DNA from: Duganella sp. Leaf126
GTDB lineage: Bacteria; Pseudomonadota; Gammaproteobacteria; Burkholderiales; Burkholderiaceae_D
Assembly: GCF_001423125.1 (NCBI RefSeq)
Contig: NZ_LMNW01000001.1
Coordinates: forward strand, 143,944 to 207,943
Length of the DNA: 64,000 nucleotides
Direction: 5' to 3'
The notes under the pieces were generated by a model that did not search any database, was not told the origin of the DNA, and worked only from the letters and a program-made list of their open reading frames with translations. The position numbers and the translations under genes were made by a program. How positions within the stretch are numbered: the first letter of the stretch is position 1; each line of letters starts with the position of its first letter. Positions 2,368 through 48,774 of this stretch are shown here, piece after piece.

Positions 2368-3600
2368 TCATGGCGGTCCGGACAGCGCAACCACCAGCGC
2401 CCGGTCGTTCACCTGGACCGGCTGGACCTGTATCACGTCGCGGTACAACGGCGGCATGGCCGCGCACATGGCGTCAAGCTCTGCGGCGGTGATGCGCGGC
2501 GTCACGTACTGGAACTGGCGCCGGTTATGCGCCGGCAGCGGGCCTTCCATGGTCGAGGCCCAGGCGCCCAGGTCCATGAAACTCGCCGCCCCATGGTCCG
2601 GACCACAGGCGAACACGAACGTGCCCTCGCGCGGATGGCCGAGGTAGCGCCGCACAGCCTCCTGCTCGTCGGCTGTGGCGCCATCCATCAGCTTGTAGCG
2701 CAGCTGCGCATAGGCGCGCGTGATTTCCATGAACGCGGTGCGGATCGCAGACTGCGCGCGCTTGCCGGACATGCACAGCAGCAGGTTGCCGAAGGCGTCG
2801 AGCAATGCCACCGCCTGCTCCGGTTCGTCCTCCGCTGCTTCGTCGCGCGCCATGGCCTGTCGCAGAAACGGCGCCAGGCCCGCGTCCGGCGCGTGCGGTG
2901 CGCAGCGGTAGGCCAGCGCATCGGGATACAGCTGCTTGAGGGCGCGCACGATGCGGTGATCGGGCGCCAGCGTGGCCGGGTCGCGCAACTGCGCGCGCGG
3001 ACAGTCCGCACCGAACAGCGCCACCACCTCGCGTGCCGTGGCTTCGAAGGCCAGCGCGCACAGCGCCTGGGTGGCTTCCGCGATGGTCTTGCCGATGAAA
3101 AAGGAACGCGGCGCGGCGCCGGCACCGGCGCGCGCATACAGCGAGCTGCCCAGCACCGCCGGGTAACTGAAGCTGCGCTGCGCCTGTTCACGCAAGCCGG
3201 ACGACAGCGCGCCGAAGCGGGCGTGCTGGTCGTAGTTGATGCCGGCGATGCGATCGGGCGCAGCCGCCACCACGTTGAAGCCACCGGCCAGGACCGCGCC
3301 GCTGCACATGCAGCACGGGTCGAGCGTGGTGACGATGGTGATGTCCTCGGGCGGCGGCAGCACCCGGCCCCGCGCGCGCTCGGCGTAGTACCAGTCGATC
3401 AGCTGGCGCTCGCCGTGCGCGGTGGGATCGAACACCAGGCCGTGGCGCACCACGTTGTTGTGCAGCGACTTGAGCACAGTGCCGTGCTGGTCGAGCATCA
3501 GGCCGCCCACGCCAAACGTGCCCTGCGTCTTGGCCGCAATCGCCTCGCTGGCAGCGATGGCAACGGCGGCCTGGACGTCGATCGTCTTCTTGAAGACCAA
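2368..3600 (-). CDS. Two-part nucleoside/cytidine-type deaminase
   Basis: 410 residues. The N-terminal half (about 1-165) is a CMP/dCMP-type deaminase fold with the zinc and catalytic motifs HGE (in TAHGERQ) and PCCMC ([15 protein letters not shown]). The C-terminal half (about 190-410) has a segment resembling a second deaminase-like module ([20 protein letters not shown]), but no zinc-binding HxE/PCxxC pair is visible, so it is probably structural or regulatory. It starts 4 nt after cdd ends, so the two are co-transcribed at the distal end of the deo operon. The predicted role is deamination of a nucleoside or base in the cytoplasm; the exact substrate is not assignable. Much longer than the usual ~150-residue enzyme. 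Confidence 0.78.
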
Positions 3601-3604
3601 GAAC

Positions 3605-4009
3605 TTACTTCTTCAGGTCGGCGCGACCGAAGCCGTTGGGCAGCTGCTCGGCGGCCGTGGTCTCGAGGATATCGCCCTTGAGATTGGTGAGCAGCACCGG
3701 CAGATCGTCGCCGCCCAGTTCTAGGATCACCTGGCGGCAGGCGCCGCACGGCGCGATCGGTCCCTCGGTTTCGCCGATCACGACCAGCTGGGTAAAGTCG
3801 CCGGGCTGGTAGCCGTGGGCAAAAGCGCTGAAGAAGGCGGTGCGCTCGGCGCAGTTGCACAAGCCGTAGGAAGCGTTTTCCACGTTACAGCCGTGGAACA
3901 CCTTGCCGTCACGGGTCAGCAGCGCCGCGCCCACCTTGAAGTTCGAGTAAGGGGTATAAGCCTTTTGGCGCGCGACGGCGGCTTCGGCGATCAGTTGTTG
4001 TTTGTTCAT
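3605..4009 (-). CDS. cdd: Cytidine deaminase
   Basis: 134 residues from the MNKQQL start, the normal length of a tetrameric cytidine deaminase. It converts cytidine and deoxycytidine to uridine and deoxyuridine. The zinc motif CAE (NCAERTAFF) and the PCGACRQ motif are intact, with the [18 protein letters not shown] segment typical of Cdd. A longer in-frame reading to 4054 exists, but its extra residues are translated from the dispersed GTCATTCC repeat, so 4009 is preferred. It lies between deoA and the second deaminase on the same strand. Confidence 0.93.
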
Positions 4010-4027
4010 GTCGTTGTTCTCTGGGGC

Positions 4028-4142
4028 GTCATTCCTGCGCAGGCGGGAATTCATATGTTGTCATATATCCCGTCAATCCCGCGCAGGCGGGAATTTGTAC
4101 GTTGTCTTATATCCCGTCATTCCCGCATTCGCGGGAATGACG
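4028..4142. repeat. Three copies of a dispersed CGTCATTCCCGC palindrome
   Basis: Copies at 4028-4050, 4071-4094 and 4115-4142. The last is a perfect palindrome: CGTCATTCCCGC, loop ATTC, GCGGGAATGACG. They occupy the deoA-cdd gap inside the operon. Related copies occur at 5599-5679 and a diverged one at 50578. They look like REP-type intergenic elements common in proteobacteria. Confidence 0.75.
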
Positions 4143-4144
4143 GA

Positions 4145-4186
4145 TTGGCGGTTGGCGGTTGGCGTCTGGCGTCTGGCGTCTGCGTT
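4145..4186. repeat. Short heptamer tandem repeat
   Basis: About six near-copies of a 6-7 bp unit, TTGGCGG repeated then TCTGGCG repeated, lie just downstream of the deoA stop codon on the minus strand. Non-coding; possibly a slippage product. No function visible. Confidence 0.6.
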
Positions 4187-47276: not shown

Positions 47277-47283
47277 CGTGACC

Positions 47284-48249
47284 TCAGGCGGCAGTGGGGT
47301 GAACATGGGGATGGACAGCGCGCCAGTGGTTGGCGATATCGATGCGGCGCGTGATCCACACCTGCTCGTGGCCCTGCACGTAATCGAGGAAGCGCGCCAG
47401 CGCTGCCAGCCGCGCCGGCCGGCCCACGATGCGGCAGTGCAGGCCGATCGACAGCATCTTCGGTGCATTCAGGCCGGCCGGGTCGCCCTCGGCGTACAGC
47501 ACGTCGAACGCGTCTTTCAGGTAATCGAAGAACTGCGTGCCGGAATTGAAACCCTGGGCGGCCGCAAAGCGCATGTCGTTGGTATCGAGTGTGTAGGGCA
47601 CGATCAGCTGCGGCGCGGTCGCCGGCAGACCGTCGGCGCCCGTGTAGCTCACCTGCTGCCAGAACGGCAGGTCGTCGCCGTAGTGGTCGGCGTCGTAGGC
47701 GAAGCCGCCGTGCTCCATCACCAGGCGCCGCGTGTGGGGCGAGTCGCGGCCCGTGTACCAGCCCTGCGGCGCACTGCCGGTCAGTTCGCGCAGGATCTCC
47801 ACCGCTTCCTTCATGTGGGCGCGCTCGGTGGCTTCATCGATCTGCTGGTAGCTGATCCAGCGCAGGCCGTGGCAGGCGATCTCGTGGCCCAGCGACTGGA
47901 ACGCCGCCACCGCCTCCGGGTGGCGCTTGAGCGCCATCGCCACGCCGAACACGGTCAGCGGCAGCTGGCGGTCCTCGAACAGGCGCAGTATGCGCCACAG
48001 GCCCGCACGCGAACCGTATTCGTACAACGACTCCATGCTCATGTGGCGGTCGGCGAACGCGGCGGCGCCGATGATCTCCGATAAAAAGGTCTCCGAGCCG
48101 GCGTCTCCGTGCAGCACGCTGTTCTCGCCGCCCTCCTCGTAATTGAGCACGAATTGCAGCGCCACCCGCGCGCCGCCGGGCCAGCGGGCATGCGGCGGCG
48201 TGCGGCCGTAGCCGACCAGGTCACGCGGGTAATTGTCGTAGGTGCTCAT
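47284..48249 (-). CDS. puuE: Allantoinase PuuE (polysaccharide deacetylase-like)
   Basis: 321 residues from MSTYDNYPRDLVGYG. A NodB-fold hydrolase that opens allantoin to allantoate; unrelated to amidohydrolase allantoinases. Family segments are DLVGYGRTPPHARWPGGARVALQFVLNYEEGGE (about 9-41), FGVAMALKRHPEA, GHEIACHGLRWISY, GWYTGRDSPHTRRLV and LSIGLHCRIVGRPARL. First gene of the minus-strand purine operon, 7 nt before xdhA and divergent from hiuH. A 20-residue upstream extension is rejected. Confidence 0.93.
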   Translation of the reverse strand: MSTYDNYPRDLVGYGRTPPHARWPGGARVALQFVLNYEEGGENSVLHGDAGSETFLSEIIGAAAFADRHMSMESLYEYGSRAGLWRILRLFEDRQLPLTVFGVAMALKRHPEAVAAFQSLGHEIACHGLRWISYQQIDEATERAHMKEAVEILRELTGSAPQGWYTGRDSPHTRRLVMEHGGFAYDADHYGDDLPFWQQVSYTGADGLPATAPQLIVPYTLDTNDMRFAAAQGFNSGTQFFDYLKDAFDVLYAEGDPAGLNAPKMLSIGLHCRIVGRPARLAALARFLDYVQGHEQVWITRRIDIANHWRAVHPHVHPTAA

Positions 48250-48331
48250 GGTTGTAGGCGAAATCGTGGCAAGGATGGTGAAATGGCGGCAAGGACCCGG
48301 ACAAAGCACGGGGCATGGGCAATATATCCTG

Positions 48332-48367
48332 AATCATATAGGCGTCGGCGCACGCCGGTATATGATT
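48332..48367. promoter_or_regulatory. Palindromic operator candidate between puuE and hiuH
   Basis: AATCATATA (48332-48340) and TATATGATT (48359-48367) form a perfect 9-bp inverted repeat. Between them lies a second one, GGCGT-CGGCGC-ACGCC (48341-48356). The site is the only strongly symmetric sequence in the 171-bp divergent region and could bind a regulator controlling both directions. No purine-type regulator gene is adjacent. Confidence 0.6.
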
Positions 48368-48420
48368 TACCCGATAGCCGCTCGTCATACACCGATATAG
48401 GACCAACAGGACACACCGCC

Positions 48421-48774
48421 ATGGGCAAACTCAGCACGCATGTACTCGATATCAGCCAGGGCAAGCCTGGCGCCGGGGTCAATGTCGCCCTCTACGCGGT
48501 CAGCGACGAGGGCCGCACCCTGCTGACCACCGACGTCACCAACGCCGACGGCCGCTGCGCCACGCCGCTGCTGGCCGGCGACCAGCTCAAGGCCGGCAAA
48601 TACGAGCTGGTGTTCGCCGCCGGCGACTATTTCGCTGCGCAAGGCGTGCCACTGCCCGAGCCGCGCTTCATCGACCAGGTAACGATTGCCTTCGGCGTGG
48701 CGGACGCCGAGCAGAATTACCACGTGCCGCTGGTGGTCTCGCCGTGGGCTTACTCCACCTACCGCGGCAGCTAG
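48421..48774 (+). CDS. hiuH: 5-hydroxyisourate hydrolase (transthyretin-like)
   Basis: 117 residues from MGKLSTHVLD. It hydrolyses 5-hydroxyisourate, the product of urate oxidation, to OHCU. The active-site set is complete: His7, Arg45, His101 and the C-terminal signature YRGS (114-117). No N-terminal signal, so cytoplasmic. Longer in-frame readings back to 48109 run antisense through puuE and are rejected. It is divergent from the puuE-xdh operon. Its stop codon touches a short inverted-repeat element. Confidence 0.96.
   Translation: MGKLSTHVLDISQGKPGAGVNVALYAVSDEGRTLLTTDVTNADGRCATPLLAGDQLKAGKYELVFAAGDYFAAQGVPLPEPRFIDQVTIAFGVADAEQNYHVPLVVSPWAYSTYRGS

Follow-up and report, generated by a model that had tools for sequence, protein, structure and literature searches.

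Do the nuclease, nucleoside and purine-base genes crowded into one stretch of Duganella sp. Leaf126 DNA (GCF_001423125.1, contig NZ_LMNW01000001.1, positions 143,944 to 207,943, forward) form one system for feeding on nucleic acids, or are they neighbors by chance? A first-pass annotation of the window, i.e., the whole 64,000-nt stretch analyzed, had read most of 46 kb as a single route. Profile searches recovered every gene it named, each in place and scoring to its family. That reading holds for the gene content, but about 9 kb has no visible link to nucleic acids: a pyroglutamyl-peptidase (pcp)/DUF979/DUF969 cassette (14512-16888) and a segment (24502-31204) with two MCPs, a TorF-type porin, a cytochrome c and an unassigned protein that looks secreted. 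The annotation left three members unnamed: deoC is followed by a double aldehyde dehydrogenase gene and cdd by one for a deaminase-domain protein, and a LysR regulator is encoded at 13588-14496. The nucleic-acid genes span about 68 kb in all, running on 19 kb to the left of the window. This extension holds uricase and OHCU decarboxylase (15 to 17 kb left), UraD-allantoate amidohydrolase and a reductive pyrimidine pathway; a PreT/PreA-dihydropyrimidinase-amidohydrolase-aminotransferase-MMSDH set adjoins the uricase/OHCU decarboxylase genes.

Gene content of the region

The deo/psu breakdown genes and the LysR gene are as follows, with presence counted in genomes that carry the island:

2368..3600, minus: 410-aa deaminase-domain protein (PF00383, E 5.1e-8; HGE...PCCMC zinc-site motif)
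3605..4054, minus: cdd, cytidine deaminase (NF004064 and TIGR01354 over cut-off; 18/18 island genomes)
4198..5475, minus: deoA, thymidine phosphorylase (TIGR02643, 684.8 bits, cut-off 570.7; 18/18)
5708..8098, minus: double aldehyde dehydrogenase, 796 aa (PF00171, two stretches; 18/18)
8112..9083, minus: deoC, deoxyribose-phosphate aldolase (TIGR00126 over cut-off)
9080..10273, minus: deoB, phosphopentomutase (TIGR01696 over cut-off)
10327..11166, minus: xapA-type purine nucleoside phosphorylase (TIGR01699, 406.6 bits, cut-off 370.9)
11402..12622, plus: psuK-like kinase with N-terminal winged HTH (PF00294 and HTH_24)
12663..13574, plus: psuG, Indigoidine_A family (PF04227, E 2e-128)
13588..14496, plus: LysR-type regulator, the proposed switch (NF007439, 319.7 bits, cut-off 290)

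The 410-aa protein is the last gene in the deo direction and is found in 16 of 18 island genomes; among the 120 relatives listed, source records disagree on its name, some giving a nucleoside deaminase, others a cytosine or a tRNA deaminase, and others a hypothetical protein. The double aldehyde dehydrogenase is predicted to take acetaldehyde from DeoC. Against the pseudouridine kinase model, the psuK-like kinase scores 139.6 bits, under the cut-off of 540, and the product of psuG is presumably pseudouridine-5'-phosphate glycosidase. The LysR gene is present in 18/18 island genomes.

To the right lie a TonB-dependent receptor and a divergent importer operon:

16956..19271, minus: TonB1, TonB-dependent receptor (PF00593/PF07715)
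19778..20773, plus: BmpA/PnrA-type substrate-binding protein (PF02608, E 2.5e-68)
20878..22407, plus: ABC importer ATPase (PF00005, two stretches)
22404..23483, plus: ABC importer permease 1 (PF02653)
23512..24483, plus: ABC importer permease 2 (PF02653)

Further right, an operon with predicted enzymes for digestion outside the cell is followed by a purine-base module:

31274..32374, minus: S1/P1-type secreted nuclease (PF02265, E 5.2e-28, over cut-off)
32371..33606, minus: secreted two-HKD (PLD3/4-like) protein, predicted nuclease (both HKD motifs: HAKYLVVD, HSKTMVID)
33618..35354, minus: 5'-nucleotidase, predicted lipoprotein (LAAC by eye; PF02872, E 5.7e-38)
35510..38953, minus: TonB2, 1147-aa receptor with carboxypeptidase-regulatory-like N terminus (PF25183/PF13620)
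39528..41018, minus: adenosine-deaminase-family (ADGF-like) protein, signal-like N terminus (PF00962; HAGE, GHG, STDD motifs)
41045..42349, minus: guaD, guanine deaminase (TIGR02967, 595.9 bits)
42366..43439, minus: xdhC (TIGR02964)
43462..45795, minus: xdhB, molybdopterin subunit (TIGR02965, 1260.8 bits)
45792..47276, minus: xdhA, small subunit (TIGR02963, 671.7 bits)
47284..48249, minus: puuE, allantoinase (TIGR03212, 523.2 bits)
48421..48774, plus: hiuH, hydroxyisourate hydrolase (TIGR02962)

In the S1/P1-type protein, Trp27 aligns to residue 1 of the solved S1/P1 chains, and the sequence carries WGNDGH at 27, HLAGDIAQPLH and HSYWD, the putative zinc ligands being viewed at the level of motifs. 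The closest solved chain of the HKD protein is 7e0m (E 4e-150), with PLD3 next (E 1e-31); its two HKD motifs and PLD3/PLD4 match predict a PLD3/PLD4-type exonuclease. The closest solved chains of the ADGF-like protein are Helix pomatia AMP deaminase and CECR1. The region thus combines predicted extracellular nuclease genes with nucleotidase and importer genes, in an order kept in relatives, and purine deaminase with xanthine dehydrogenase genes. Scanning the proteins of 2368-48774 retrieved no SusD-type Pfam family.

Conservation and the background of synteny

The operons are not scattered in relatives, a result that favors the grouping. Within the limits of the stretches compared, the core order is found in 12/12 complete same-genus genomes and in 6/10 genomes chosen from other genera; within the DNA retrieved for each, it is likewise kept in 31/31 same-genus relatives. 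Modules stay in order even across up to ~20 kb of other DNA (genome G038). Twenty-four genes are each present in 18/18 island genomes. The HKD gene occurs in 53/53 other same-genus genomes, and puuE lies within 20 kb of it in 49/54 (own genome counted); in four of six island genomes from other genera the HKD gene is missing. The right flank, with pil genes, is often conserved too.

Local synteny by itself is shown by a background control not to be exceptional in this family. Neighbors are retained in 155/281 cases (55%) for the island and in 93/296 (31%) over five arbitrary regions, absent anchors included, and one control anchor kept 48/60, so that an arbitrary 20-kb region of the same genome can exceed the island. 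With the background this high, shared gene order by itself carries modest weight, and since the relatives are one lineage, the genome counts are not independent. The internal control is more telling: the 23 nucleic-acid genes fill 402 of 414 gene-genome cells, whereas 8 other genes between them fill 44 of 144. This persistence against turnover, together with the palindrome described below, is stronger evidence than synteny and sets the grouping above chance.

The receptors of the region fare differently. A dCache receptor had been proposed to serve the same diet, but it is present in only 2/18 island genomes and 11/34 loci. The dCache_1PU purine motif is Y-R-W-F-D/N with McpH spacing (PMC11245519), and a loose-spacing search, which is not an alignment to McpH, found no match in the 27276-29243 protein. 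The dCache receptor and the pyroglutamyl-peptidase cassette are probably bystanders. TonB1 adjoins bmp in 31/31 same-genus relatives, including the 8/31 that lack the pcp cassette. The idea that both TonB receptors share the diet probably stands, because the palindrome is common to the outside-digestion, importer/TonB1 and deo/psu promoters; against it, TonB1 is found in only 2/6 island genomes from other genera and is missing in four. TonB2 was not found in its slot at 16/33 named loci, of which three hold another TonB-like receptor gene there (two were scanned).

A palindrome shared by three promoters

A 23-bp palindrome, ATTTATA-N9-TATAAAT, occurs at three promoters of the island. It was derived at psuK/xapA and afterwards tested at bmp/TonB1 and at the promoter of the receptor-nucleotidase-nuclease operon, which also carries a Pho-box-like element:

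11302..11324, unstranded: operator 1, ATTTATATGTCCGATGTATAAAT, xapA/psuK divergent promoter (0 mismatches)
19374..19396, unstranded: operator 2, TonB1/bmp divergent promoter (2 mismatches)
39208..39230, unstranded: operator 3, promoter of TonB2, 5'-nucleotidase, HKD and S1/P1 genes (2 mismatches)
39092..39109, minus: Pho-box-like element, nuclease-operon promoter (3 mismatches)

At no more than two mismatches, operator 1 is found in 35/36 relatives (one departure in the arms across 35 sites) and operator 2 in 30/33 (100 dinucleotide shuffles: mean 0.14, maximum 1). Operator 3 is found in 27/33 named loci, or 33/33 at up to three mismatches, and in 14/18 numbered genomes (100 dinucleotide shuffles: mean 0.06, maximum 1). 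Counted as absent beyond two mismatches, the operators are missing in 1/36, 3/33 and 4/18 relatives, respectively. The site is also present at 4/4 bmp promoters that lack TonB1, and it is kept at nuclease loci whose receptor is not TonB2. At the same threshold, one site lies outside the three promoters in 2.56 Mb of relatives, and none was found in 340 kb of control stretches. The whole genome of strain Leaf126 holds seven operator-like sites, of which three are the island promoters, two of these with two mismatches; of the four others, the best is found 3' of an ExeM/NucH-type nuclease gene. Neither the xdh nor the pyrimidine-ring module carries the operator, so the island is not one regulatory unit. 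The one-route reading is partly supported.

LysR proteins typically bind operators with a T-N11-A signature, which the ATA-N9-TAT core fits; there are several target promoters, and the LysR gene is adjacent to one. The palindrome is likely the binding site of the island LysR regulator, as judged from its sequence and distribution. That the HTH domain of PsuK, or some unlinked regulator, binds it instead appears improbable. PsuK does have an N-terminal winged HTH, and operator 1 lies next to the start of its gene. However, one stray operator site in all occurs across the four genomes that lack the island LysR near bmp. Two of them, the g69 pair, keep the bmp operon and a psuK whose alignment extends through the HTH region, yet have one stray site between them. 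This near-absence of operators where LysR is lacking favors LysR over PsuK, as does the fit of the core to the LysR signature.

The E. coli Pho box consists of two CTGTCAT repeats with a 4-nt spacer. In the Leaf126 genome alone, the Pho-box-like element is at chance level. In gene direction and at up to three mismatches, it recurs at 19/33 loci (shuffle mean 1.15, maximum 4) and in 11/18 genomes (shuffle mean 0.65, maximum 5), at a distance of 98 to 170 bp (228 bp in one case) past the LysR-type operator. It is rarer at psuK/xapA (7/36) and bmp/TonB1 (4/27), with shuffle means of 0.2 and 0.45, so not nothing, and reaches 1/28, 1/14 and 0/34 at further island promoters tested. This element suggests that phosphate, and not carbon or nitrogen only, may drive the nuclease operon.

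Proposed working, rival readings and known systems

The reading that we favor, at a probability of about 0.7, is that, in this stretch conserved across Duganella and related Burkholderiaceae, the three operons are under one LysR regulator acting through the common palindrome. With one palindrome, likely LysR-bound, in all three promoter regions, digestion, import and breakdown would turn on as a set. At the cell surface, DNA and RNA would be degraded to nucleosides by the secreted S1/P1 and HKD nucleases and the 5'-nucleotidase; TonB receptors would carry pieces across the outer membrane, inosine would come from the ADGF-like deaminase, and the BmpA-type importer would take nucleosides in for XapA, DeoA and Cdd. 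DeoB-DeoC and the aldehyde dehydrogenase would burn deoxyribose, and PsuK-PsuG would recycle the pseudouridine of RNA. PhoB may place the nuclease operon under phosphate-starvation control as well, and breakdown of the bases would be completed by the linked xdh-ureide and pyrimidine-ring modules, each under its own regulators.

The strongest competitor, still unlikely, makes the receptor-nucleotidase-nuclease operon a Pho-regulon phosphate scavenger whose place beside catabolic operons is mostly historical. The recurrence of the Pho-box-like element at its promoter fits this, but the same promoter carries the operator of the deo/psu and importer operons, needless for a pure phosphate unit, and the element is weak in the Leaf126 genome and rarer at other tested island promoters. 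That the stretch simply rearranges slowly, with operons inherited side by side and linkage not selected, is of low probability: the high background synteny and the often kept pil flank agree with it, but unrelated genes turn over while the nucleic-acid genes stay, module order survives the ~20-kb gaps, and the operator is nearly absent outside the three operons. Least probable, and hard to credit, is a lipid-based reading in which the HKD protein acts as a phospholipase D and the receptor operon is used in scavenging of membrane lipids or of a mixed necrotrophic kind. The closest solved relative of the protein was indeed deposited as a phospholipase D, but the next matches are PLD3/PLD4 5'-3' exonucleases, and its gene overlaps the S1/P1 nuclease gene and begins 11 bp after the 5'-nucleotidase gene. 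Furthermore, the report on 7e0m describes features of the pocket that resemble those of a nuclease and raises the question of nucleic-acid cleavage by the enzyme (PMC8004604).

Under the favored LysR reading, several known systems offer comparison. Polysaccharide utilization loci (SusC/SusD) group an outer-membrane receptor, surface enzymes and breakdown genes, as the island does; in contrast, its scanned proteins include no SusD-type family, its substrate would be nucleic acid, and it has an ABC importer. It is a tentative and somewhat doubtful proposal that the island is a proteobacterial counterpart for nucleic acids, with a LysR and PhoB switch and with swappable TonB2-slot and TonB1 receptors gating oligonucleotides or nucleosides; we know of no established TonB receptor for either in Proteobacteria. 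In E. coli, the LysR-type activator XapR lies beside the nucleoside genes xapAB. The PunR-punC pair is similar, and the PunR palindrome is also 23 bp, but it has a different consensus, and PunR is described by its authors as activating punC specifically (PMC8376909), whereas the Duganella palindrome is common to three distant operons, extracellular enzymes included.

The loci with which Ca. Izemoplasmataceae utilize extracellular DNA (Wasmund et al. 2021, PMC8289736; isolate paper, PMC8397711) likewise combine extracellular nucleases with phosphohydrolases and ABC importers in a single locus, and place purine deaminases with xanthine dehydrogenase in one region. Those organisms are wall-less Tenericutes, whereas Duganella is Gram negative, and its single stretch joins pseudouridine, ureide and reductive pyrimidine modules to TonB receptors, nucleases of the S1/P1 and PLD3/4-like types, and a common LysR-type operator. 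For Serratia plymuthica 7e0m, substrate choice is left open in the portion of PMC8004604 drawn on here; the context of the Duganella HKD protein points to nucleic acid.

From a set of familiar enzymes, the analysis derives a testable regulon of one palindrome, one candidate LysR protein and three operons. For the solved "phospholipase D" 7e0m it predicts a nuclease role, and for the two TonB receptors a cargo of nucleic-acid fragments. In a Massilia strain, DNase activity has been ascribed to exodeoxyribonuclease genes such as sbcB, xthA, recD and recB (PMC9028926); the island offers candidate genes by which this environmental group may eat extracellular DNA and RNA.

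Gene content and extent of the island

The window corresponds to C1:143944-207943 in a 5.31-Mb genome. A total of 52 genes were called, and 38 of them, from 240 to 50531, were scanned against Pfam and NCBIfam. All genes that the first-pass annotation had named in a 46-kb catabolism region (2368 to 48774) were retrieved. The grouping of nucleic-acid genes is real, and part of it is predicted to be one regulon. Its components, including those of the left flank, are as follows.

Minus strand: puuE-xdhA-xdhB-xdhC-guaD-ADA, in transcription order, intergenic gaps of -4 to 26 bp; ADA (39528-41018) is an adenosine-deaminase-family protein
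Minus strand: TonB2-5'NT-PLD-S1/P1, gaps of 155, 11, and -4 bp; TonB-dependent receptor TonB2 (35510-38953), 5'-nucleotidase 5'NT (33618-35354), secreted two-HKD protein PLD (32371-33606)
19778-24483, plus strand: BmpA-type importer (bmp) operon, gaps of 104, -4, and 28 bp; divergent from the TonB-dependent receptor TonB1 (16956-19271)
xapA-deoB-deoC-ALDH (gaps of 53, -4, and 13 bp), then deoA, cdd, and a gene for a 410-aa deaminase-domain protein; divergent from psuK-psuG-lysR
psuK-psuG-lysR, gaps of 40 and 13 bp; lysR at 13588-14496 (+)
Left flank: M20 amidohydrolase, uricase, LysR2, UraD-allantoate amidohydrolase fusion (TIGR03164 plus amidohydrolase), second amidohydrolase
Left flank, continued: dihydropyrimidinase (TIGR02033), NCS1 permease, PreA, PreT-like protein, MMSDH, AptA aminotransferase
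Left flank, regulators: MocR-type and YcdC/RutR-type

A 574-bp gap separates ADA from TonB2. Within the window the purine route skips from XDH to HiuH, and the only urate oxidase match in the genome (PF06181) lies 17 kb to the left. Since the left flank carries uricase and the pyrimidine genes, the island spans about window -18972 to 48774.

About 9 kb among the island operons has no visible nucleic-acid link. The 410-aa protein (2368-3600) combines an N-terminal deaminase domain (HGE...PCCMC) with a long C-terminal region that matches no Pfam family, and closes the deo direction in 16 of the 18 island genomes. The aldehyde dehydrogenase of the deo operon (5708-8098) contains two ALDH stretches. 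The pyrimidine module and the deo genes are separated by a PEP-CTERM protein (240-1241) whose putative adhesive domain is ice-binding-like, and a secreted-looking 293-aa protein without Pfam or NCBIfam match (30323-31204), found in part of the relatives, adjoins a TorF-type porin and MCPs. The pcp cassette (14512-16888) encodes DUF979 and DUF969 proteins alongside a pyroglutamyl peptidase, and possibly serves 5-oxoproline transport.

Conservation in relatives and its controls

Searching with the PLD protein yielded 34 named loci; the nearest genome among them is that of Duganella phyllosphaerae (PLD gene 89% identical). The order guaD-ADA-receptor slot-5'NT-PLD-S1/P1 occurs in 33 of the 34, the contig of the remaining one being cut; guaD is adjoined by xdhC in 32 of these 33, and the importer lies within 10 kb in 31/34. 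At L019:1-2300 (Rugamonas rubra), puuE stands directly before guaD with no intervening xdhC, unlike elsewhere. The PLD gene is present in all 53 other genomes of the genus (68 to 92% identity), and no PLD match above 40% identity appeared among the matches listed for 36 genomes from other families of the order. The first-pass annotation had proposed synteny as a check on whether the operons move together: the order S1/P1, importer, TonB1, (pcp cassette), LysR/psuG/psuK, xapA-deoBC-ALDH-deoA-cdd-deaminase is indeed kept in 31 relatives, as far as their stretches (20 to 80 kb each) reach, with the pcp cassette missing from 8. As for the left modules, the pyrimidine set and uricase occur in 8/8 relatives with an 80-kb stretch, and uraD-allC occurs as well in 7/8. 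Orthologues of bmp were found in 35 of 116 family genomes, 30 of them in other genera; the island is present in 6 of 10 genomes sampled from those 30 (genera g40, g42, g48 twice, and g55 twice) and absent from g38, g64, and both g69 genomes; in g69, bmp occurs with psuKG and cdd.

Local synteny is high in the family. Arbitrary regions of the same genome (5 of 9, every second one searched, with an anchor absent from the target genome counted as zero) kept 93/296 neighbours in four genomes, one region reaching 48/60. The island kept 155/281, a figure lowered by the fact that some of its stretches are truncated or lacking (uricase in G166). Because this background is also high, linkage alone proves little, and local synteny is weakened as proof of island linkage. 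Two internal controls say more, namely, the persistence of gene cells and the shared operator described below. Over the 18 genomes with the island, 402/414 cells are filled for 23 nucleic-acid genes in the window and 44/144 for 8 other genes interspersed among them, a split drawn post hoc, once the presence matrix was known. Neither set includes TonB1 (14/18), TonB2 (15/18), LysR (18), glx (16), or genes outside the window; PLD presences for 12 same-genus genomes come from the separate 53-genome search, and fast-evolving genes can score absent at the 38% identity cut.

The ureide genes of one clade are located elsewhere. In G003, G020, G032, and G044, puuE lies directly beside uraD at a chromosomal place other than the island. 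The ureide genes are missing from both island ends in G044; only the right end is seen in G020 and G032, and the stretch of G003 reaches neither end. Co-loss of puuE and uraD is thus rejected, as a compact copy elsewhere replaces them, and this single clade represents at most one event. The PLD-uraD distance is 47 to 88 kb in 40 of 54 genomes; the remaining 14 comprise 10 with uraD on another contig than PLD and the 4 of the compact-copy clade. In G028, a stop splits the uraD match.

A predicted operator and further regulatory signals

Phylogenetic footprinting of 12 promoters revealed at psuK/xapA a palindrome with arms ATTTATA and TATAAAT around 9 free bases, with one departure over 35 sites. 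With up to 3 mismatches allowed, the window contains precisely three such sites (chance, 0.07; no shuffle out of 100 gave as many), as follows.

11302-11324: between xapA and psuK
19374-19396: between TonB1 and bmp
39208-39230: upstream of TonB2-5'NT-PLD-S1/P1

Relatives also have the operator (up to 2 mismatches): at xapA/psuK in 35/36, at TonB1/bmp in 30/33, at bmp promoters without TonB1 in 4/4, and at the TonB2-slot promoter in 14/18. In the named loci, which overlap with the numbered genomes and are thus not an independent set, the slot promoter carries it in 27/33 (33/33 at up to 3 mismatches), and it persists in 16 loci where TonB2 is absent from the slot. Outside these promoters, the sequence of relatives (2.56 Mb) contains 1 further site, and the control stretches (340 kb) contain none. 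The Leaf126 genome holds 7 sites at up to 2 mismatches, 3 of them in the window (the probability that 3 or more of the 7 fall within this 64 kb is about 6e-5), and the reversed pattern gives 2. Beyond the island, the best operator-like site is G000:C2:35484-35506 (L188:1685-1707; 1 mismatch). It is located immediately 3' of two genes, one for a PEP-CTERM protein and one for an ExeM/NucH-type extracellular nuclease; the nuclease match is below its cut-off, and its gene is cut by the stretch end. The site is also 5' of the gene for a PhoB-like response regulator, and might reflect chance or a terminator-like structure.

The LysR protein is our candidate for the switch that binds this operator, because the four genomes examined that lack it near bmp have a single stray operator site among them, although two of the four, those of g69, keep a PsuK that aligns through the HTH region.

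One regulator for the whole island is rejected, since aptA/mocR carries a different, RutR-like palindrome, TTTGCCANNTGGNAAA (29/29 at up to 1 mismatch), and the puuE promoter has neither a LysR-type site nor that palindrome. Among 11 other promoters, the RutR-like palindrome occurs at bmp in 8/42 and at ADA in 13/19 (up to 3 mismatches; shuffles, 2 and 0); the ADA site of this genome, at -347 from ADA, falls inside guaD. The E. coli RutR consensus gave no site within 4 mismatches in the island intergenic regions. A rival reading based on phosphate is partly incorporated into the best explanation. Within the window alone, Pho boxes are at chance level. Across relatives, a box with up to 3 mismatches is found at the receptor-nuclease promoter in 19/33 loci and 11/18 genomes (shuffle means, 1.15 and 0.65), always in gene direction and 98 to 170 bp (once 228) beyond the operator. 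Boxes at psuK/xapA (7/36) and bmp/TonB1 (4/27) exceed shuffles (0.2 and 0.45) but are far rarer, and three further promoters gave 1/28, 1/14, and 0/34. This conservation makes double control of the outside-digestion operon, by LysR-type operator and Pho box, likely as a prediction from promoter sequences. A terminator-like stem between TonB2 and 5'NT (35458-35476), of a kind at chance level in the scanned region, perhaps tunes receptor versus enzyme levels.

Individual proteins, receptors, and novelty

Among solved structures, the HKD protein is closest to 7e0m, whose deposition names it a phospholipase D, and then to PLD3 and PLD4. The authors of 7e0m ask whether the enzyme cuts nucleic acid (PMC8004604). 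The position of the HKD gene between nucleotidase and S1/P1 genes in 34 loci argues for a predicted nuclease. Trp27 of the S1/P1 protein aligns to residue 1 of solved chains. The nearest matches of ADA are an AMP deaminase and CECR1, so that AMP is also a possible substrate.

In 16 of the 33 named loci (L010, L012, L014, L015, L017, L018, L020-L025, L027, L028, L033, and L034), no TonB2 match lies in the slot that separates ADA from 5'NT. The three slots inspected (L010, L017, and L027) hold another TonB receptor of 789 to 813 aa, two of which were scanned for domains, while promoter site and neighbours stay; these three loci reveal receptor swapping. The dCache receptor, which the first-pass annotation suggested may serve the nucleic-acid diet, is probably a bystander: a purine-sensing receptor is rejected, as the purine motif was not found and the gene is present in 2 of 18 island genomes.

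In the literature searched, with subscription journals mostly outside its scope, no paper covering as many as 5 of 6 elements of this gene combination was found, and no publication on this operator was recognised among the matches listed; for utilisation loci, the 15 of 35 matches listed were all unrelated scavenging papers. The individual parts are familiar; the novelty lies in how large the arrangement is, in a predicted operator common to steps outside and inside the cell, and in the inclusion of the receptors.
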